Notes under the pieces: generated by a model
Database searches by the model: none
What the model was told of the DNA's origin: nothing
The model's input: only the letters and a program-made list of their open reading frames with translations
Virus record (IMG/VR): IMGVR_UViG_3300047585_000021
Coordinates: 1 to 24,572 of that record
Length of the DNA stretch: 24,572 bases
DNA from: a virus
Reading direction: 5' to 3' (one strand)
Position numbers and translations under genes: made by a program
In this document: positions 2,555 to 24,572 of the stretch, piece by piece
Position numbering within the stretch: the stretch's first letter is position 1
Layout: each line of letters opens with the position of its first letter

Positions 2555-3736
2555 ATGACCACCGACACGCTGCCGCTGGCGGAGCTGGAGCTGAGCGCGG
2601 GCGATCTGCCTGCGCCCGGTTCCTGGCGGTCGGCGCTGTACCGGCCGGACGCGCCGGGCGCGGCGCTGGACGGCCAGCCGTGGGCGCGGTCGTGGGGTGC
2701 GTTCATGCATGCCATCACCGACCCGGACAACCCGGCGGCGCGCACCCTGATCGGCAACGTCATGTCGGAGCGGGTGCCCAGCGAGGGCGGGTTCCTGGTG
2801 CCGGAGTTCCTGCGGTCGCAGGTGCTGGCATACATGACGGCCCCGATCGTGCGCCCGCAGGCGATGGTGCTGCCGATGACGTCGGACCGGCTGGCGATCC
2901 CGGTGCTGGATAACCCGAGCCAGGCCAGCAGCGCGCAGGCGCTGGGCGGCATGACGTTCGCATGGGTTGAGCCGGGGGCGGTGATCCCGGGCTCGGCGGC
3001 CACGGCCCTGGCGCCGCAGTTCGGCCGCGCGGTCCTGGAGGCCCGCAAGGCCGCCGCGTACATGCAGGGCGTGCCGAACGAGCTGGTGGACGACGCGGCG
3101 GGCGCGTTCGGCGACTTCACCGCGCGGGTGATCGCGAAGGGTTATGCGTGGTTCGAGGATGACGCGTGGCTGAACGGCACCGGGGTGGGCCAGCCGCAGG
3201 GGCTGATCAACGCCGCGTGCGCGGTGGGCGTGGACCGCACCACGGCTAACGCGGTGACGTTCCTGGACGTCGTCGCGATGTTCAAGGCGCTGCACCCGGC
3301 GAGCAAGCAGTCCGGGCTGACGCCGGGCGTGACCTCGACGGCGTGGCTGATGTCGGCGACCGTGATGGACCAGATCCTGGAGATCTACTACAACCCGACG
3401 GGCAGTGAGGTTGTGCCGCCGTCGGGGTGGTTCTCAATGGGCGACGGGCGCGAGATCGGCCCGAACATGCTGGGCCTGCCCGCCGTGGTGACCGACCACC
3501 AGCCCGCCATTGGGGCGACGGGCGACATTGTGCTGGCCGACCTGGCGGAGTACGTGATCGGCGACCGGCTGGCGATGACTGTGGAGCGGTCGGCGAAGGG
3601 TGCCGGGTTCGTAACGGGCACCTCGAATTTCCGCATCAAGAGCCGGGTGGACGGCCGGTACTGGATCCAGAGCCCGACCACGACCGAGGCCGGCCAGACG
3701 GTGAGCCCGGTCGTGGTCCTGGACACCCACACCTAG
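2555..3736 (+). CDS. Second HK97-fold major capsid protein paralogue with short N-terminus
   Basis: The 393-residue product is clearly paralogous to the capsid protein at 566. Shared landmarks are MSER(V/I)PSEGGFLVPE (here residues 70-83), IVRPQAMVLPM, GVPNELV, YAWFEDDAWLNGTGVGQPQG (near residue 208), a GLPAVVTDHQP stretch and the ending KSRVDGRYWIQSPTT. The short helix before the core also matches (WGAFMHAIT here, FGKFMYAIF in the first copy). The N-terminal part before that helix is only about 45 residues against about 140, so most of the scaffold-like delta region is absent. The core is intact and in frame, with no sign of decay. There is no strong ribosome binding site, and the gene starts two bases after the preceding stop, which suggests translational coupling. 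It may form a minor capsomer (for example a vertex protein, as T4 gp24 does relative to gp23) or mixed hexamers; this is inference. Confidence 0.93.
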   Translation: MTTDTLPLAELELSAGDLPAPGSWRSALYRPDAPGAALDGQPWARSWGAFMHAITDPDNPAARTLIGNVMSERVPSEGGFLVPEFLRSQVLAYMTAPIVRPQAMVLPMTSDRLAIPVLDNPSQASSAQALGGMTFAWVEPGAVIPGSAATALAPQFGRAVLEARKAAAYMQGVPNELVDDAAGAFGDFTARVIAKGYAWFEDDAWLNGTGVGQPQGLINAACAVGVDRTTANAVTFLDVVAMFKALHPASKQSGLTPGVTSTAWLMSATVMDQILEIYYNPTGSEVVPPSGWFSMGDGREIGPNMLGLPAVVTDHQPAIGATGDIVLADLAEYVIGDRLAMTVERSAKGAGFVTGTSNFRIKSRVDGRYWIQSPTTTEAGQTVSPVVVLDTHT

Positions 3737-11384: not shown

Positions 11385-11512
11385 GGGCGGAGCTGGTGCT
11401 GGGCCTGGCCGAAATGTGGCACTCCCGCCCATCCCAGGTGCTGAAGGAAGACGCGGAGGTGCTGCGCGACCTGGAGGTCAGGCGGCTCGGAACGCCGAGG
11501 GGAGGTGAGTAA
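10875..11512 (+). CDS. Tail assembly chaperone, -1 frameshift fusion (gpGT-like)
   Basis: Slippage by -1 at 11237-11243 joins the first ~123 residues of the zero frame to 89 residues of the overlapping frame, for ~212 residues in total. The added part reads ARRLREWRDATG, then a Gly/Asp-rich linker and a helical end, WELVRAELVLGLAEMWHSRP, SQVLKEDAEVLRDLEVRRL. That ending resembles the T domain of gpGT proteins, which contacts the tape measure. The T part has no start codon with a ribosome binding site of its own. The fusion stop overlaps the tape measure ATG as TAATG, as expected for a fusion that is the functional upstream partner. The joined coordinates are 10875-11243 then 11243-11512. Confidence 0.8.
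11237..11243 (+). other. Programmed -1 ribosomal frameshift site CCCTTTG
   Basis: The heptamer C CCT TTG is in the zero frame in the canonical X XXY YYZ register: tRNAs on CCT and TTG can re-pair with CCC and TTT. A possible stimulatory hairpin, TGGCG-CGA-CGCCA, lies at 11261-11273, 17 bases downstream (a little further than usual). No other in-register slippery heptamer was found between the end of the conserved G domain and the zero-frame stop. Confidence 0.72.
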
Positions 11513-14190
11513 TGGCGGCGAACGTCGTCGAGATCGTCATCACCAGCACAAACAAAGCGGGCGCTGGCATCGAGGAGTCCGCGGACCAGGCCGAGGAGGC
11601 CGCCGCGGCGTGGGACGCCTACGCGGACGCGGCCACCCGGGCGGCCGAGGCGAACACGGAGCTGGAGGCGGCGGCGGCCCGGCTGGCCGGGGTGCAGGCC
11701 GACGAGGGTGCCAGCGGCGAGGAGCTGGCCGCCGTGCAGAACGAGTACGCGGCGGCGCTGGACCGGGCCAGCACGGCGGCCACGGCGAGCCTGGACGCCC
11801 AGATGCGGCTGGCCGCGGCCGAGCGTGATAGCGCCGCGGCGGCGAAGGAGTCCAGCGACGCCCAGGAGGAGAGTGCCGCCAAGACCGACGAGTCCAGCGA
11901 GAGTGCGGGCATGTTCGCGGGCGCCTGGGGGAAGGCGAAGCTGGCACTCCTCGGCGTCGCCGGGGCGATGGTCTACGGCACGGTCAAGGCGGCCGGTTTC
12001 CAGAGTGTCATGAACACGCTGAACACGCAGGCGGGCGTGTCGCGCGGCCAGCTCGCGTCGCTCGGCAACGGGGTGCTGGCGCTGGCCGGGCAGGTCGGCG
12101 ACAGCCCGGACTCCCTGGCGCAGGCGCTCTACCACGTCGAGTCGTCGTTCGCCAGCGTCGGCATCACCGGCCCGAAGGCCCTCAACCTGCTGAAGACGGC
12201 GGCCGAGGGTGCGGCGGTCGGTCACGCCGACCTGGTCGACGTCACGAACGCGCTGGACGCGACGATCGTCGCCGGGGTGCCGGGGATCAAGTCCTACAGC
12301 GGCGCGATGGGTGCCCTTAACGCCATCGTCGGCTCCGGCGACATGACCATGCAGGATCTGGCCAGCGCGATGTCCACCGGCGTGATGGCGGTCGCGAAGT
12401 CGTTCGGCCAGAACATTTACCAGGTCGGGGCGGCCCTGGCCGTCTTCGGTGACAACAACATCCGGGGGGCCCACGCGGCGACGGAGCTGCGGATGGCCTG
12501 GCAGGCGATGCAGGCGCCGCTGACCACCGCGGGCCCGGTGCTGAAGAGCATCGGCCTGACGATGACCGAGCTGGGCCACACGATGACCCACGAGGGCATG
12601 TCGTCGGCGATCGAGCAGTTCATCCAGCACCTGCAGGCGAGCAAGGTCCCGGCCAGCGACTGGGGCCAGTACATGACTGAGATCTTCGGCAAGAAGGCCG
12701 GCGTCGGCATCGGGATCCTGACCGACCAGATCGACCGGCTCAAGAGCAAGTTCCCCGACCTCGAGCGCGGCGCATCCGGCTTCGGCTCGGCGTGGGCGCA
12801 CACGCAGCAGACGGTCGCGCAGCAGTGGGCCGACCTGAAGTCCAGCCTGGACGCCCTGGTCACCAAGATGGGCGTCGGCCTGCTGCCGATCGCCATGAAG
12901 GCCGTCCGCGGGCTGACCGACTTCGCCAACGCGCTCGAGCATGGGAAGGGCCCGGCGATCGCGGTCGCCGCCATCATCGGCGGCGCGCTGGCGGGGATCG
13001 CCCTCAAAAAGCTCCAGGATGGGCTCTCGACCGCAGCCGAGGGGTTCGAGAATCTCTGGAAGGGCGGCGAGAAGCTCGCGGGCTGGGCCGGCCAGATGAT
13101 CGGCAAGCTGACCGGCGCCGGGGACGCCGCGGCGGACGCGGCCACCGAGACCGAGGGCCTGGCCGCCGCACAGGATGCCCAGGCCGAGTCGGCGGAAGGG
13201 GCAGCGGCGGCGCAGGAAACCCTTGACGTTGCCGAGGACGCCAACCCGATCGGCGCGATCATCATGCTGCTGGTGGCCCTGGCCGCCGGGATCTATGAGG
13301 TCGTGAGGCACTGGAAGGACTTCGAGCACTGGGGATCCGAGGCCCTCCATGGGGTCGAGACCGCGGCCCGCGACGTGTGGTCCTGGATCAAGGCGAACTG
13401 GCCGATGCTGGCCGGGATCCTGCTAGCGCCATTTACCGGCGGTATTTCGCTGGCAATCGCCCTGATCGTGAAATTCCACAAGGATATCGAGCGCGAATTC
13501 GATGATATCCGCCACGACGTGGCGTCAGATCTGGACGGAATGCGCCACGATGTCGCCGCCGCTTTTGACGATTTTATTAGCACCGAGGAATCGGGGCTGG
13601 ATATTATCCGCCACGATTTCGCCTCGAAATTCGACCAAATCCGGCACGACATCGCCTCCTGGGGCGATGACGTCGTCCACTGGTTTGAGCAGCTCCCCGG
13701 CCGGATCGTGAACGGTGCGGCGGCGCTGCCGGGGATGCTTTTCCATCTCGGGGAGAACGCGATCTCTGGGCTGCTGCACGGCCTGGAATCGATGGTCGGC
13801 GGCCTGATCGGTGATGCGGAGAATTGGGGTCACGACATCGCCAACGCCATTGGCGGCGCTTTCGGTATCCATTTCAGCGAGCCGTCTGAGGCCACGAAGA
13901 TGATCGCGGCCGGGCAGCGCGCCGGCCTGGGCTTCGCCAAGGGGCTGGCGTCCACGGAGGGCGCCTTGCGCGGCGCCGCGGCGACCGCGTCCCGTGCCGC
14001 GATGTTCGGCGGGGCTGGCGGCGGCTACGGCGGCGGCGGTGCGGGCGGCCAGATGGAGGTCGTCCTGCGCTGGGAAGGGGCCGAATCGGGGCTGATCAGG
14101 GAGCTGTTCCAGTCGCTGAAGGCGCAGGTCCGGGTCGTCGGCGGCGGTGGCACCAACAGCGCCCAGCGGGCGTGGGGACAGACGAGCTAG
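11512..14190 (+). CDS. Tail tape measure protein
   Basis: At 892 residues this protein should set the tail length, about 130 nm at 0.15 nm per residue. Residues ~1-135 are an Ala/Glu/Asp-rich coiled-coil region. Residues ~150-480 match the TP901-type tape measure core (VMNTLNTQAGVSRGQLASLG, GIKSYSGAMGALNAIVGSG, IRGAHAATELRMAWQAM). Hydrophobic segments lie near residues 143-160, 481-500, 580-597 and 631-652, as in tape measures that insert into the membrane during DNA ejection. Residues 663-728 form six 11-residue repeats of the (F/L)DxIRHDxAS type. A Gly-rich stretch and a VVLRWEGAESG segment close the protein. The ATG overlaps the chaperone fusion stop. DNA at ~13430-13700 uses more A/T third positions than the rest, which hints at mosaic origin. 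Confidence 0.95.
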   Translation: MAANVVEIVITSTNKAGAGIEESADQAEEAAAAWDAYADAATRAAEANTELEAAAARLAGVQADEGASGEELAAVQNEYAAALDRASTAATASLDAQMRLAAAERDSAAAAKESSDAQEESAAKTDESSESAGMFAGAWGKAKLALLGVAGAMVYGTVKAAGFQSVMNTLNTQAGVSRGQLASLGNGVLALAGQVGDSPDSLAQALYHVESSFASVGITGPKALNLLKTAAEGAAVGHADLVDVTNALDATIVAGVPGIKSYSGAMGALNAIVGSGDMTMQDLASAMSTGVMAVAKSFGQNIYQVGAALAVFGDNNIRGAHAATELRMAWQAMQAPLTTAGPVLKSIGLTMTELGHTMTHEGMSSAIEQFIQHLQASKVPASDWGQYMTEIFGKKAGVGIGILTDQIDRLKSKFPDLERGASGFGSAWAHTQQTVAQQWADLKSSLDALVTKMGVGLLPIAMKAVRGLTDFANALEHGKGPAIAVAAIIGGALAGIALKKLQDGLSTAAEGFENLWKGGEKLAGWAGQMIGKLTGAGDAAADAATETEGLAAAQDAQAESAEGAAAAQETLDVAEDANPIGAIIMLLVALAAGIYEVVRHWKDFEHWGSEALHGVETAARDVWSWIKANWPMLAGILLAPFTGGISLAIALIVKFHKDIEREFDDIRHDVASDLDGMRHDVAAAFDDFISTEESGLDIIRHDFASKFDQIRHDIASWGDDVVHWFEQLPGRIVNGAAALPGMLFHLGENAISGLLHGLESMVGGLIGDAENWGHDIANAIGGAFGIHFSEPSEATKMIAAGQRAGLGFAKGLASTEGALRGAAATASRAAMFGGAGGGYGGGGAGGQMEVVLRWEGAESGLIRELFQSLKAQVRVVGGGGTNSAQRAWGQTS
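13498..13695 (+). repeat. Six 11-residue repeats within the tape measure gene
   Basis: Consecutive units read FDDIRHDVASD, LDGMRHDVAAA, FDDFISTEESG, LDIIRHDFASK, FDQIRHDIASW, GDDVVHWFEQL. The hydrophobic first position and the IRHD core are kept in four of six units; the third and sixth are divergent. Eleven-residue repeats with regularly spaced aromatic or large hydrophobic residues are known in tape measure proteins. Confidence 0.75.
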
Positions 14191-21002: not shown

Positions 21003-21509
21003 GTGACTAACGCGGCGACCATCTTCGCGGGCAGCAAGATCACGGCGGCCGGCCAGGCGGGCATCGCACCCATGTGCGCGGCCAAGGGGTCGAACCAGTC
21101 CCTGGCCAGCTCGGTCAGCCTGCAGAACGACAACGCGGTGCTGTTGGCCGTGGCCGCGAACACCACCTACAAATGGCTGTGCACGCTGTTCTACACCGGC
21201 GGCACCGAAGGCTCGTCGGACCTGCAGTTCAACTGGACCGGCCCGTCCGGTGCGGCCTGGACGTTCACCGCCGACTACCGCAACACCAGCGGCGTCTTCG
21301 TCGGCGGGGTCGGCTTCACTCAGGCCTCGGCGAACATCGTCTGCGGCTCGAACGGCTCATCGTTCCTCTGCGCGGTGAAAATGAGCGGCATCCTGATCGT
21401 GGGCTCGACGGCTGGCACGTTCCAGCTCCAGTGGGCGCAGGACACTTCGAACTCGACCGCGACCGTCATGCAGGCCAACTCGGACCTGACCATGTGGAAC
21501 GTGTCGTGA
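21003..21509 (+). CDS. Small beta-rich tail-tip protein
   Basis: The 168-residue protein reads LASSVSLQNDNAVLLAVAAN, TYKWLCTLFYTGGTEGSSDL, FNWTGPSGAAWTFTADYRN, and ends TFQLQWAQDTSNSTATVMQA, then SDLTMWNV. Small beta-sandwich proteins with the pattern 'D-x-x-L-x-x-x-V-x-A-N-x-x-Y ... Y-x-G ... D-x-x-x-x-W-T-G-P-S-G-A ... L-x-W-A-Q' lie downstream of the tail-tip gene in many actinophages and are taken as tail appendages or receptor-binding parts; no experiment is known to me. GTG 21003 has an excellent GGGAGGTGAG at 20991-21000. It is the last plus-strand virion gene and converges on a minus-strand gene five bases further on. Confidence 0.82.
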   Translation: MTNAATIFAGSKITAAGQAGIAPMCAAKGSNQSLASSVSLQNDNAVLLAVAANTTYKWLCTLFYTGGTEGSSDLQFNWTGPSGAAWTFTADYRNTSGVFVGGVGFTQASANIVCGSNGSSFLCAVKMSGILIVGSTAGTFQLQWAQDTSNSTATVMQANSDLTMWNVS

Positions 21510-21512
21510 TGC

Positions 21513-21544
21513 GGCTACGCGGGAGCCCACGCCGGGTCGTAGCC
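21513..21544. terminator. Possible hairpin between convergent genes
   Basis: GGCTACG (21513-21519) and CGTAGCC (21538-21544) can pair around an 18-base loop that is itself GC-rich. It lies just after the stop of the tail-tip gene and across the 3' end of the minus-strand gene. There is no T-tract, and most of it is coding sequence of the minus-strand gene, so this is a weak call. Confidence 0.3.
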
Positions 21545-21928
21545 CGGGTGGTCGCTGTAGACCGTGGCCACAGCGCATACGTCGGGGCACGGCCACGGAA
21601 CAGACGACACTTCGTCTCCGCCTCCCCCACAGCAGGTGCCGCAGATTGGCGGCTGCACCGGATACAGCCGGTGCCGCTTCAGGGTGGCCCGCTTGGCCGC
21701 GACGTCGCGGAGCACCCGCGCCGGGTCATGGCGGGCGATGTGAGCCGACTCCTGGACGGTGGGCGTTCCCTCGTCGTAGATGAGGGGGTCGCCGGTGGCA
21801 TCCGCAACCATGGGGGCGCCGTAATCCTCGCCACCAGGCACCCAGGGGGCCGGAGCAGATTCGGTCGCAGCTTTCGCGATCGCCTCATCCTCGTCCAGCC
21901 GTGCGGTCAGGAACGTCACCAGGTCCAT
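21515..21928 (-). CDS. DUF6221-like protein on the opposite strand
   Basis: The 137-residue protein begins MDLVTFLTARLDEDEAIAKA, has an APAPWVPGG segment, then YDEGTPTVQESAHIARHDPA, RVLRDVAAKRATLKRHR, a Cys cluster (ICGTCCGGGGDE ... PCPDVCAV) and the closing ATVYSDHPGYDPAWAP. The pattern 'D-L-V-x-F-L-x-A-R-L-D-E-D-E ... H-I-A-R-H-D-P-A-R-V-L-R-(D/E)-V ... Y-x-x-H-P-x-Y-x-x-x-W' is that of DUF6221, a family seen in actinobacterial genomes and their phages without known function. It is the only minus-strand gene inside the late region, opposite to all neighbours. It therefore probably has its own promoter and looks like an acquired accessory (moron-type) gene. Only 26 bases separate its ATG from the divergent ATG at 21955, so promoter elements must overlap coding sequence. 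Confidence 0.88.
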   Translation of the reverse strand: MDLVTFLTARLDEDEAIAKAATESAPAPWVPGGEDYGAPMVADATGDPLIYDEGTPTVQESAHIARHDPARVLRDVAAKRATLKRHRLYPVQPPICGTCCGGGGDEVSSVPWPCPDVCAVATVYSDHPGYDPAWAPA

Positions 21929-22266: not shown

Positions 22267-22526
22267 ACCCATGGAGCCTATGGGACCGCTTGAAAGACAT
22301 CGGGCTGACCATCCTGGGCGCGTTCGCGATCGAGTCGCAGATCCGGTCGCCGCACCCGAACGGGCTGGTGATCGGCGCGGGCCTGGCGCTCACCGTGCCC
22401 GACGTCGCCCGCAAGGTCAGAGCGCTGCTGCCAGGGCCTGGCGATGGGGAACCCTCGGAGCCGGAGCCGCCAACATCGGGGTCGCCATCGGAATCCTCAC
22501 GGCGGGAGGTGTCCGGTGGTAAGTGA
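22263..22526 (+). CDS. Small two-segment membrane protein (holin candidate)
   Basis: The 87-residue protein starts at a GTG overlapping the preceding stop. It has two hydrophobic segments (LTILGAFAIESQI, residues ~15-27, and GLVIGAGLALTVPDVARKV, ~34-52), then a Pro/Ser/Glu-rich hydrophilic tail. Two helices and a charged tail in under 90 residues fit a holin or antiholin, and it lies just ahead of a GH25-like gene. No family-specific motif is recognised, so the assignment rests on topology and context. Its end overlaps the start of the next gene by 11 bases. Confidence 0.75.
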   Translation: MNPWSLWDRLKDIGLTILGAFAIESQIRSPHPNGLVIGAGLALTVPDVARKVRALLPGPGDGEPSEPEPPTSGSPSESSRREVSGGK

Positions 22527-22956
22527 AGGTGACGGCCATGCGCCGGGTGACCCGCGGGGGCAGATGAAGCAGATAGTGAACCTGGCGCGCGGGCCGAAGG
22601 GTGAGCAGGGCGACACTGGCCAGCGGGGTGCGCGCGGGCCGGCCATGAGCGGGCCTGTCCGCCGCGCGATCGTCTACCTGTGCGTCGGGGCGTTCACCAT
22701 CGGCGGCGCGAACCTGCTGTGGACCAATCAGGCCGTGAACTCCTATAAGGCTGGCCAGGCAGCCGAGCAGGCCACCGCGCAGCGCCAAGGCGAGATGCTC
22801 GAGCACAAGCTGTGCACCACATTCGGGAGCCTGGCTGCACTGAAACCGCCGCCCGGCAATCCGCACACCAATCCGAGCAGGGCCTACGAGCAGGGCGAGC
22901 ACGCCATCCTCGACCAGGTCGGCCCCGACCTGCAATGCCCGAAGGAGCAACCATGA
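22516..22956 (+). CDS. One-pass membrane protein with collagen-like stretch
   Basis: The 146-residue protein contains six G-X-Y triplets (GPKGEQGDTGQRGARGPA, residues ~29-46), then a membrane helix (RRAIVYLCVGAFTIGGANLL, ~52-71) and an outside region with MLEHKLCTTFGSLAALKPPP, NPSRAYEQGEHAILDQVG and a final Cys. From memory, actinophage lysis-region membrane proteins share the 'L-C-x-T-x-x-x-L-A-A-L-x-P-P-x-G-x-x-x-x-N-P-S-R-x-Y' ending. The N-terminus is Gly/Asp-rich. GTG 22516 is chosen because GGGAGG at 22504-22509 lies six bases upstream; an ATG at 22444 would add an Arg/His-rich extension in shadow of the previous gene. A role in lysis (spanin-like or holin regulator) is possible but unproven. 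Confidence 0.8.
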   Translation: MVSEGDGHAPGDPRGQMKQIVNLARGPKGEQGDTGQRGARGPAMSGPVRRAIVYLCVGAFTIGGANLLWTNQAVNSYKAGQAAEQATAQRQGEMLEHKLCTTFGSLAALKPPPGNPHTNPSRAYEQGEHAILDQVGPDLQCPKEQP

Positions 22957-23441
22957 TCACCATGTACGACGCACTGAACCCCGGCAACATCCCCGCCTCG
23001 GCCCGCGTGGTCGGCGGCTACCCGGACCGGTGGGCCCGGGAGGGCTGGGACCGTTTCCCGGGCGCGGTCAAGGTGCTGATCGCCGAGTCGCTCGACCCGG
23101 CGGGACTGTGGCGGCACTGCAACGTCTTCGGCACCGAAGCCGGCGCGCTCACCCCCGCCCAGGTCCGCGAGTGCCTCGAGTACCGGCAGGGCCTCGGCAA
23201 GCACGGCAACACCGTCTACTGTTCCGCTGACATCCTCAAGGAGGTCCAGGAGGCATGCCACGGGCTGGACTACTGGCTGTGGCTGGCCGACTGGCTCGGG
23301 CAGCCCGAGGACCTCGAGCGGGCCGCGCTGGTCCAGTACCGGGGGAATGTGGCGCCGGGCTACGATCTGTCGGCCGTTTTCAGCGCGCAGTGGCTGGAGG
23401 AGATCGACGAGGCCAACCGGCCCTGGCCGCTGGCTGCATAG
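22953..23441 (+). CDS. GH25-like / DUF1906-like protein, possible endolysin or remnant
   Basis: The 162-residue protein reads MYDALNPGNIPASARVVGGY, WDRFPGAVKVLIAESLDP, GALTPAQVRECLEYRQGLGK, NTVYCSADILKEVQ, LDYWLWLADWLGQPEDL and VQYRGNVAPGYDLSAVFSAQ. This matches, from memory, short TIM-barrel-like proteins of actinobacterial phages related to GH25 muramidases. In that family the middle normally reads L-D-V-E-x-G-(D/N)-A-T-P; here it is CNVFGTEAGALTP, so the D-x-E pair is disturbed and activity is uncertain. GGAGCAA precedes ATG 22953, which overlaps the previous stop (ATGA); ATG 22962 is also possible. It closes the plus-strand lysis group. No secretion signal is visible, as usual for holin-dependent phage enzymes. 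Confidence 0.78.
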   Translation: MITMYDALNPGNIPASARVVGGYPDRWAREGWDRFPGAVKVLIAESLDPAGLWRHCNVFGTEAGALTPAQVRECLEYRQGLGKHGNTVYCSADILKEVQEACHGLDYWLWLADWLGQPEDLERAALVQYRGNVAPGYDLSAVFSAQWLEEIDEANRPWPLAA

Positions 23442-23606: not shown

Positions 23607-23690
23607 CTAGTGCACGACCAGGGCCGCGACCACCGCCGCGAGCATGACCACGGCCACGACCGCGAAGGCGATCCTGCCGCCGAGATTCAT
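23607..23690 (-). CDS. 27-residue single-helix membrane mini-protein
   Basis: A 27-codon frame starts at an ATG overlapping the stop of the preceding minus-strand gene (ATGA, 23687-23690). It encodes MNLGGRIAFAVVAVVMLAAV followed by VAALVVH, nearly all one hydrophobic helix. The overlap, matching the 4-base overlaps of the rest of this operon, and the clean hydrophobic pattern support translation. A small membrane peptide in a conjugation-type operon could assist transfer or spread functions, but no homologue can be named. Confidence 0.55.
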   Translation of the reverse strand: MNLGGRIAFAVVAVVMLAAVVAALVVH

Positions 23691-23923
23691 TTCCGCCGCT
23701 CCCGGTAGTCGATCGAGCCGCGCACGATCCGGTGCACCGTCCGCGACCCGAACCGCTGGCGCCGTCCGGAGCCGCCGCACCGGCCGCAGTTGCCGAACCG
23801 CTTGGCGTTGCTCCCGGCGTTCCGGCCGGTGCCCTTGCATTTGCCGCACGGGCCGAACGGCCAGAAGTACAGGCTGACCGCCCAGCAGGCGAGCGCGCCG
23901 ACGGCGACTAAGAAGAGGATCAC
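23687..23923 (-). CDS. One-helix membrane protein with DnaJ-like CxxCxGxG motifs
   Basis: The 78-residue protein starts at GTG 23923, which overlaps the stop of the upstream gene and has GGGAGGG about eight bases upstream. Residues 2-~20 are a membrane helix (ILFLVAVGALACWAVSLYF). Then come CGKCKGTG and CGRCGGSG, two CxxCxGxG units like the zinc finger of DnaJ, and a basic tail (RRQRFGSRTVHRIVRGSIDY). From memory such small 'helix + CxxCxGxG' proteins occur beside FtsK-like transfer genes of actinomycete mobile elements and in some actinophages; their role is unknown. A longer reading to 23998 overlaps the upstream gene and is not preferred. Confidence 0.8.
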   Translation of the reverse strand: MILFLVAVGALACWAVSLYFWPFGPCGKCKGTGRNAGSNAKRFGNCGRCGGSGRRQRFGSRTVHRIVRGSIDYRERRK

Positions 23924-24168
23924 CGGCCGCCCTCCCGCCGCGTGGCCCGCGTGTCGTCGCCGAACGCGGCGCCGAGCCGGTGGCAAGCGCACGAGCACGA
24001 GCCGGCATCGCAGCTGGCGTGCCGGTGCTTCCGGCAGTCCTCTGAGGCCCCTACCGGGGTAGGGCCCGTACTACCTCTCGCCGACCTGCGGTTATTCCGC
24101 CCATTCCTACCCGCCCCTACCGGGGCACCCGCGCTGGCCTGGGCGGTAGGAGGTAGGGGGCTGGTCAC
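23920..24168 (-). CDS. Small Cys/His-rich protein of transfer-type operon
   Basis: The 82-residue product has a flexible Gly/Ala/Arg-rich first half and a Cys/His cluster, EDCRKHRHASCDAGSCSCACHR, which should bind zinc. GTG 24168 overlaps the stop of the translocase gene (GTGA), and its own stop overlaps the next GTG (GTGA), so it is embedded in a chain of coupled genes. This tight chaining and the compact Cys cluster are the reasons to accept it despite its size. Its N-terminal coding part contains repeated (A/T)-P-V-G-A steps encoded by a 13-bp direct repeat. Function is unknown. Confidence 0.68.
   Translation of the reverse strand: MTSPLPPTAQASAGAPVGAGRNGRNNRRSARGSTGPTPVGASEDCRKHRHASCDAGSCSCACHRLGAAFGDDTRATRREGGR
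24046..24160. repeat. 13-bp direct repeat, hairpin and GGTAGG-type motif cluster
   Basis: GCCCCTACCGGGG occurs exactly at 24047-24059 and 24113-24125 (66 bp apart). The first copy is part of an inverted repeat, GGCCC(C)TAC-CGGG-GTAGGGCC (24046-24066). CTACC or GGTAG cores occur about seven times within this ~115 bp. They overlap the 5' coding part of the small Cys/His-rich gene. They could be operator-like sites or simply repeated coding sequence. Confidence 0.45.
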
Positions 24169-24572
24169 GCCTGCCCCCGGATCTGCTCGATATCGGCCCT
24201 GCGGCACCCCATCAGGTTCTGGCCGAACATCTTCACCTGCACACTCGGCACGCCCAGCGCCCGGCAGTCGGCCGACACGCTGTCCGGCGTGGCGTCCTGC
24301 CACCGCTCCGGGAACTGCGTGGCCAGCCGGCCGGTCAGCACCTGCCAGTGCAGCCCCGGGTCGGAGCCGAACACGGCCAGCACGTCGGCCAGCACGTCGC
24401 GGGCGGGCGCTTCGGCCTCGATCCCGGCCGCCATGCCGGTCAGCGTCCCGGCACGCTCACGCAGCGCCCTGGCCGCGATCAGGATGCGCTCGGCGTCCTG
24501 ACTGTCGGCCAGGTAGGTGCGCACCGTCGGCGACCGGTCAGAGGCCCCGCGCAGGATGCCGACGCCCTTGTA
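24165..24572 (-). CDS. FtsK/SpoIIIE-type DNA translocase, C-terminal part (5' end outside window)
   Basis: The frame is open to the window edge on the minus strand; 135 residues are visible. They read YKGVGILRGASDRSPTVRTY, LADSQDAERILIAARALRER, AGTLTGMAAG, then a second domain VLADVLAVFGSDPGLHWQVL, TGRLATQFPERWQDATPDSV, SADCRALGVPSVQVKMFGQN, MGCRRADIEQI. The first block (K-G-x-G-x-L-x-G ... V-R-T-Y-x-x-D-x-x-x-A-E-R-I) is the end of the ATPase domain of actinobacterial FtsK-like TraB/TraSA proteins. The second is the winged-helix-like C-terminal part that follows it in such proteins and would bind DNA. In actinomycete integrative conjugative elements this protein moves double-stranded DNA between cells. 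The Walker motifs are outside the window. It heads a coupled four-gene operon. Confidence 0.82.
   Translation of the reverse strand, partial: YKGVGILRGASDRSPTVRTYLADSQDAERILIAARALRERAGTLTGMAAGIEAEAPARDVLADVLAVFGSDPGLHWQVLTGRLATQFPERWQDATPDSVSADCRALGVPSVQVKMFGQNLMGCRRADIEQIRGQA

Follow-up and report, generated by a model that had tools for sequence, protein, structure and literature searches.

Does a temperate phage carry a conjugation-type DNA translocase as part of its own genome, or do a phage and a transferable element lie side by side at one site? This question is raised by the window analyzed here, the whole of a 24,572-base viral record (IMG/VR record IMGVR_UViG_3300047585_000021), in which a virion and lysis block meets a convergent operon that is cut by the right edge of the record.

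Gene content of the window and its right-end operon

Genes for an HK97-type capsid, a tape measure protein, tail and lysis, as expected of a temperate tailed phage, are all present in the window. On the plus strand, the major capsid gene is located at 566–2089 (TIGR01554, E-value 9e-56), the tape measure gene, recognized by a family match, at 11512–14190, and a tail-region gene (phrog_24062) at 21003–21509, the last of which is also found near the junction in the related viral records L028, L030 and L036. Further along the same strand are a gene for a membrane protein with a collagen-like stretch (22444–22956), a relative of which adjoins the lysin in L028, and an endolysin-like gene (22953–23441), the last of the virion and lysis block. 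The product of this gene shows 32% identity to the L028 endolysin, which bears a PG_binding_1 domain (E-value 2e-4), and gave no match in Pfam or PHROG. An integrase and an att site are not seen in the window and are known from relatives alone, with integrases present in genomes G001, G002 and G009 and in viral records L041 and L042.

Two other genes of the window were noted. A second, different HK97-type capsid gene is located at 2555–3736 (TIGR01554, 1e-39), the nearest relative of which is from Streptomyces phage Dagobah (33%). A DUF6221 gene (PF19730, 7e-29), which looks like a moron, is located at 21515–21928 on the opposite strand within the tail and lysis block.

The operon at the right end is encoded on the minus strand. 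Its first visible gene (24165–24572, product P0001) is open at the contig edge and was recognized by homology as the 3' end of a traB-type, FtsK/SpoIIIE-like translocase gene; the last 135 codons, of a protein of about 670–730 aa, cover the end of the motor domain and a C-terminal winged-helix domain, the contig stops before the 5' part is reached, and the distance to the capsid gene is 22 kb. Downstream is a small cysteine-rich ORF (23920–24060; 46 codons read, start not located), for which an ORF in a similar position is seen in L029. Its stop at 23920 overlaps by GTGA with the gene for a 79-aa membrane protein with a CxxCxGxG zinc-ribbon motif (23687–23926), a conserved partner gene of traB: most of the viral and chromosomal loci have a relative of it directly after traB. 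A candidate ORF for a 27-aa hydrophobic peptide (23607–23690) overlaps with the 79-aa gene by ATGA. Thus, the small genes with 4-base overlaps, convergent with the lysis and virion block, that the initial annotation described are indeed seen, the 27-aa ORF as a candidate only.

Identity of the translocase gene

Searches with P0001 by itself gave chance-level matches at best in the family libraries, and the identity of this 135-aa product therefore rests on its relatives. Such relatives were found at nine viral and 26 genome loci with 53–70% identity, and three further viral records were added. The full proteins, mostly of about 670–930 aa, match the PHROG family 1358, annotated as "FtsK/SpoIIIE-like", with E-values of 1e-15 to 1e-23, and the TraB protein of L028 matches TraB of plasmid pSVH1 with an E-value of 1e-18. 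A Walker A motif of the form AxPR[QA]GK[ST], in which the first glycine of the P-loop is replaced by alanine, and a Walker B motif of the form hhhDE or hhhEE are kept in the full-length relatives. These motifs and the genes upstream of traB are known from relatives, since the window covers 135 TraB codons only.

Structure predictions agree with this assignment. For L028 TraB, the modelled structure matches that of the FtsK motor (6t8o, E-value 8e-13) as well as that of TcpA, a conjugation coupling protein, and long helices are predicted at residues 66–196, in the N-terminal region that is off the window. The AlphaFold model of P0001 is a winged helix with pLDDT values of about 90–95 over residues 61–130 and structural matches with Z-scores up to 6.6. 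Foldseek/VIA searches with the C-terminal model returned generic winged helices and did not list the FtsK gamma domain, an absence that weighs little.

No match was obtained by tblastn with P0001 against phages and plasmids or with the full L028 TraB against phages, and, at the limits applied, none of 50,697 records of isolated phages gave a relative. The Pfam model FtsK_SpoIIIE did not match any of the seven relatives scanned and is therefore unusable for finding this group. Judged from sequence, the gene in the window is nearly certain to be of the TraB type, a membrane pump with which mobile elements of mycelial bacteria move double-stranded DNA from hypha to hypha. The proposal in the initial annotation that the gene at the right edge is the end of an FtsK/SpoIIIE-type translocase, with Walker motifs to be looked for in the full gene, is thus borne out by the full-length relatives rather than by the window alone.

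The same junction in viral records, prophages and a plasmid

The junction of lysis genes and a TraB-type gene, which the initial annotation had suggested looking for elsewhere, was found in the same convergent form in seven further viral records (L028, L029, L030, L031, L036, L041 and L042) and in six prophages. In all of these viral records but L031, the gene order is GntR regulator, small ORF, DUF2637-type membrane protein, TraB and small genes, after which lysin and tail genes follow in convergent orientation; contigs that extend far enough also show an integrase upstream. The GntR regulator was not called in L036. Record L031 starts within traB and shows the downstream part. A colinear variant was seen in L033, L034 and L047.

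The prophages were identified by a search with the window capsid against 297 genomes of one bacterial family, which gave nine clear relatives. In six of these (G195, G260, G122, G092, G064 and G228), a TraB-like gene is located 17–21 kb away on the same contig and is convergent as in the window; in the other three, none was seen on the contig that carries the capsid gene. The layout of the window is also that of pPaSha2 of Pseudonocardia alni (L123, CP052773.1), a circular molecule of 41,938 bp, which encodes terminase, portal, protease, capsid and holin as well as a convergent set of TraB, DUF2637 and integrase genes. As a separate observation, L032 and L035 carry TraB on viral contigs of 102–103 kb, in which the PF05065 capsid was not found.

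One element rather than two in the relatives

A similar picture could be produced by a prophage that is the direct neighbour of an actinomycete integrative conjugative element (AICE) at a shared site, or by a chimeric contig; AICEs with closely related TraB proteins do occur alone (G144, G026). This reading is highly improbable, as the convergent junction recurs in divergent sequences and searches of the phage relatives for the AICE replication genes RepSA and Prim-Pol gave no match. The att sites also speak against it. In the 8.15-Mb chromosome of G228, a perfect 44-bp repeat is located at 3,329,589 and at 3,389,348, the right copy inside a tRNA-Thr gene and adjoining the integrase, and the pair encloses portal, terminase, amidase and TraB genes (PF01580 above its cut-off). 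In G122, a 45-bp repeat from a tRNA-Arg gene flanks a region of about 55 kb that includes genes for capsid, TraB, DUF2637 and GntR proteins.

A single att pair around both blocks implies one element rather than two neighbours. Thus, it is well supported from the relatives that the transfer module and the virion genes form one element, and the two-element reading is largely refuted for them. Two possibilities raised in the initial annotation were examined in this light: that two elements share one site is rejected for these relatives, and an att site separating the two blocks is not seen in G228, where there is no third copy of the repeat between the pair.

Relationship to AICEs

The cellular TraB proteins nearest to the window gene, with 67–69% identity over the part in the window, belong to AICEs, among them those of G144 and G026 (68–69%). 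These two are encoded by AICE-like elements located at tRNA genes, with Prim-Pol and without virion genes. In a tree of 64 TraB proteins, in which the window is represented by 135 residues only, the window forms a clade with L028, L029, L030, L031, L041 and L042 with a support of 1.0, nested inside the AICE TraBs. Across the tree, the distribution of phage-linked TraBs needs eight changes as compared to a mean of 14.5 after shuffling, pointing to several captures of TraB by phages.

The clade contains only phages so far, and PHROG, where the full-length relatives score best against family 1358, gives as function only the moron and host takeover class. Both observations are compatible with an FtsK-like phage gene for genome uptake on infection, superinfection exclusion or host takeover. 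We consider such a role quite improbable because the clade is nested in the AICE TraBs and because the motor motifs, the partner genes and the repeat array described below are kept. The phage-specific family that the initial annotation had considered agrees with the membership of the clade and not with its position in the tree.

RepSA and Prim-Pol were found neither in eight viral records nor inside the G228 and G122 prophages, in a search that was made with the models of these two families; the window itself is a partial sequence. As a control, both models matched elsewhere in the same genomes, Prim-Pol inside the AICEs. This suggests a phage with a transfer module rather than a full AICE fused to a phage, and also that a circular transfer form would depend on phage replication. 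The hybrid element proposed in the initial annotation therefore holds in that virion and transfer blocks are united in one element (G228, G122), but not as a full AICE.

A chromosomal match in N. gerenzanensis was also tried as PhiNon1; it turned out to be AICE-like, without virion genes beside it.

A repeat array 3' of traB

A cluster of short repeats directly 3' of traB (24049–24158) was revealed by a k-mer cluster scan with shuffled controls. It consists of CCTACC at 24050, 24106 and 24116 on the plus strand and of GGTAGG at 24058, 24145 and 24152, with a weaker copy, CTACC, at 24071. No other 6-mer cluster in the record is as strong: the array has six copies as compared to a mean of 2.4 after shuffling, and none of 1,000 shuffles reached six. 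In nearly all close relatives, the roughly 150 bp after the traB stop contain four to eight copies of one heptamer, on both strands. The heptamer is typical of the locus: CGCGACC or CGCTACC in most relatives, and otherwise CGTTACC (L055, L057), CGCGATC (L030, L041), CGCTGCA (L031) or CTAACCC (G122). By the same scan, the array was weak or absent in G092, G260, L036 and some distant loci. When applied to pSVH1 as a control, the scan recovered GACCCGGA repeats from 16 bases after traB; TraB of pSVH1 is reported to read repeated 8-bp motifs (PMC3583192). In pWTY27, clt was mapped by deletion and footprinting to the last 16 bp of traA and 159 bp beyond, with four heptamers (PMC3583192).

The array also contains a more constant element, recognized by its recurrence among loci. 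In the window, this is CGCAGGTCG (24082–24090, minus strand), which has one mismatch to CGCAGGTCA. Of 80 loci, 17 have an exact copy of the latter in the 310 bp that follow traB (1.2 expected), including ten of the 15 phage-linked loci, and the element is also present at +147 in pSVH1 (L119) and pSG5 (L122).

Operators, such as one for the GntR regulator, and replication iterons likewise typically have short repeats on both strands. We nevertheless regard the array as probably a TraB loading site, to which TraB would bind, and the operator or iteron reading as rather improbable. The position of the array 3' of traB agrees with that of the repeats in pSVH1 and of the clt mapped in pWTY27, and the array type tracks the TraB C-terminus on the tree. 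Another point that we count against an operator or iteron is that the array is located upstream of traB instead in L032 and L035.

Some further features of these regions were noted. The constant element lies amid variable repeats in L028, L029, L030, L041, L042, G228, G122 and G064, and in some phages there are two copies, 42–53 bases apart. In the distant TraB-type loci L074, L076, L077, L082 and L085, palindrome-like repeats (CCTCTAG/CTAGAGG or CCGCTAG/CTAGCGG) begin about 15 bases past the stop.

Covariation of the array and the TraB wing

For the 43 loci with CGCTACC or CGCGACC, the array was compared to the TraB alignment. At position 684 in the L028 frame, which corresponds to N119 of P0001, alanine is present in 23 of 25 loci with CGCGACC, and valine, threonine, serine or asparagine in all 18 loci with CGCTACC. 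Six of seven changes at base 4 of the array fall on branches where the class of residue 684 changes, as compared to none of 20,000 random placements. Column 684 was picked after inspection, and in a scan of 404 columns it was tied first with one motor-domain column. Thus, it is suggestive that the array sequence and a TraB wing residue change together on the tree, whereas a recognition code between wing and array stays a hypothesis because the second column scores equally. Residue N119 maps to the wing of the predicted winged helix of P0001, a position that would fit DNA contact by the wing. In TraB of pSVH1, helix a3 and not the wing has been credited with recognition (PMC3583192).

Proposed role of the module

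Taken together, the window probably derives from a temperate actinophage that carries an AICE-type transfer module beside, and convergent with, its lysis genes. The module would comprise a GntR regulator, a DUF2637 membrane protein, TraB, the clt-like array and the zinc-ribbon membrane protein, without an AICE Rep. We infer from the relatives that the upstream genes of the module (GntR, DUF2637) are also present in the window phage. After excision of a circular phage genome, TraB hexamers would sit in the membrane, the C-terminal winged helix would bind the array 3' of traB, and the motor would drive the double-stranded DNA of the phage through septa or into adjacent hyphae; the virion genes would serve release as particles. 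Such phages may thus also spread by cell-to-cell DNA transfer; a putative transfer of DNA between hyphae is plausible, with the chances about evenly balanced.

The module could alternatively serve the upkeep of the prophage within one mycelium, across septa, in spores or by rescue of compartments without the circle, rather than transfer between strains. In Streptomyces plasmids, Spd and TraB proteins serve stability and spreading within the mycelium (PMC4170104); here, TraB is accompanied by DUF2637 and zinc-ribbon genes, and the module is present in the circular extrachromosomal record pPaSha2. In the plasmids studied, however, the tra gene and clt are enough for transfer between strains (PMC3583192, PMC4170104), and we consider a role restricted to upkeep less likely than not, although the observations made here fit both readings. 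For the phages with a transfer module as a group, we tentatively suggest, with somewhat less than even confidence, that a TraB-clt module was acquired separately by several temperate actinophage lineages, which use it to pass the double-stranded genome directly between hyphae alongside virions, and that the specificity of the array, set by the TraB wing, is fast-changing between phages.

Relation to known systems

The module resembles the TraB/clt systems of pSVH1 and pWTY27 in its predicted FtsK-like membrane translocase with a C-terminal winged helix, its GntR and SpdB2/DUF2637-type neighbours and the short repeats directly 3' of the tra gene. It differs in that it is located in a phage genome, in the sequence of the repeats and in that the covarying residue is in the wing and not in helix a3. 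Related TraB proteins and the same partner genes are found in AICEs of the pSAM2 and pMEA type, which have int, xis, rep, Prim-Pol and tra, whereas the phage relatives carry virion and lysis genes, and RepSA and Prim-Pol are absent from those searched. For pSAM2, no clt has been described (PMC9513070).

Actinobacterial elements that unite phage structural genes with a plasmid life are pZL12/PhiZL12 and PhiNon1, and transfer genes are reported for pZL12 (PMC3583192, PMC5431353). With these precedents, the combination is not categorically new. By published descriptions, the difference from pZL12 is that the present elements insert at tRNA genes and encode a TraB next to an array. New in this analysis is the array of short repeats just 3' of traB, which was an unplanned find.

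If the proposed role is correct, phages of mycelial bacteria would gain a second, particle-free route of spread, and the module would suggest where AICEs and phages swap parts. Repeat arrays and wing residues, read as a code, would also make the specificity of TraB testable. The arrays are candidate clt sites for AICEs, none having been described for the archetype (PMC9513070). Mobility typing overlooks such elements: pPaSha2, which is typed and filed as a non-mobilizable plasmid, looks like a complete phage genome that includes TraB.
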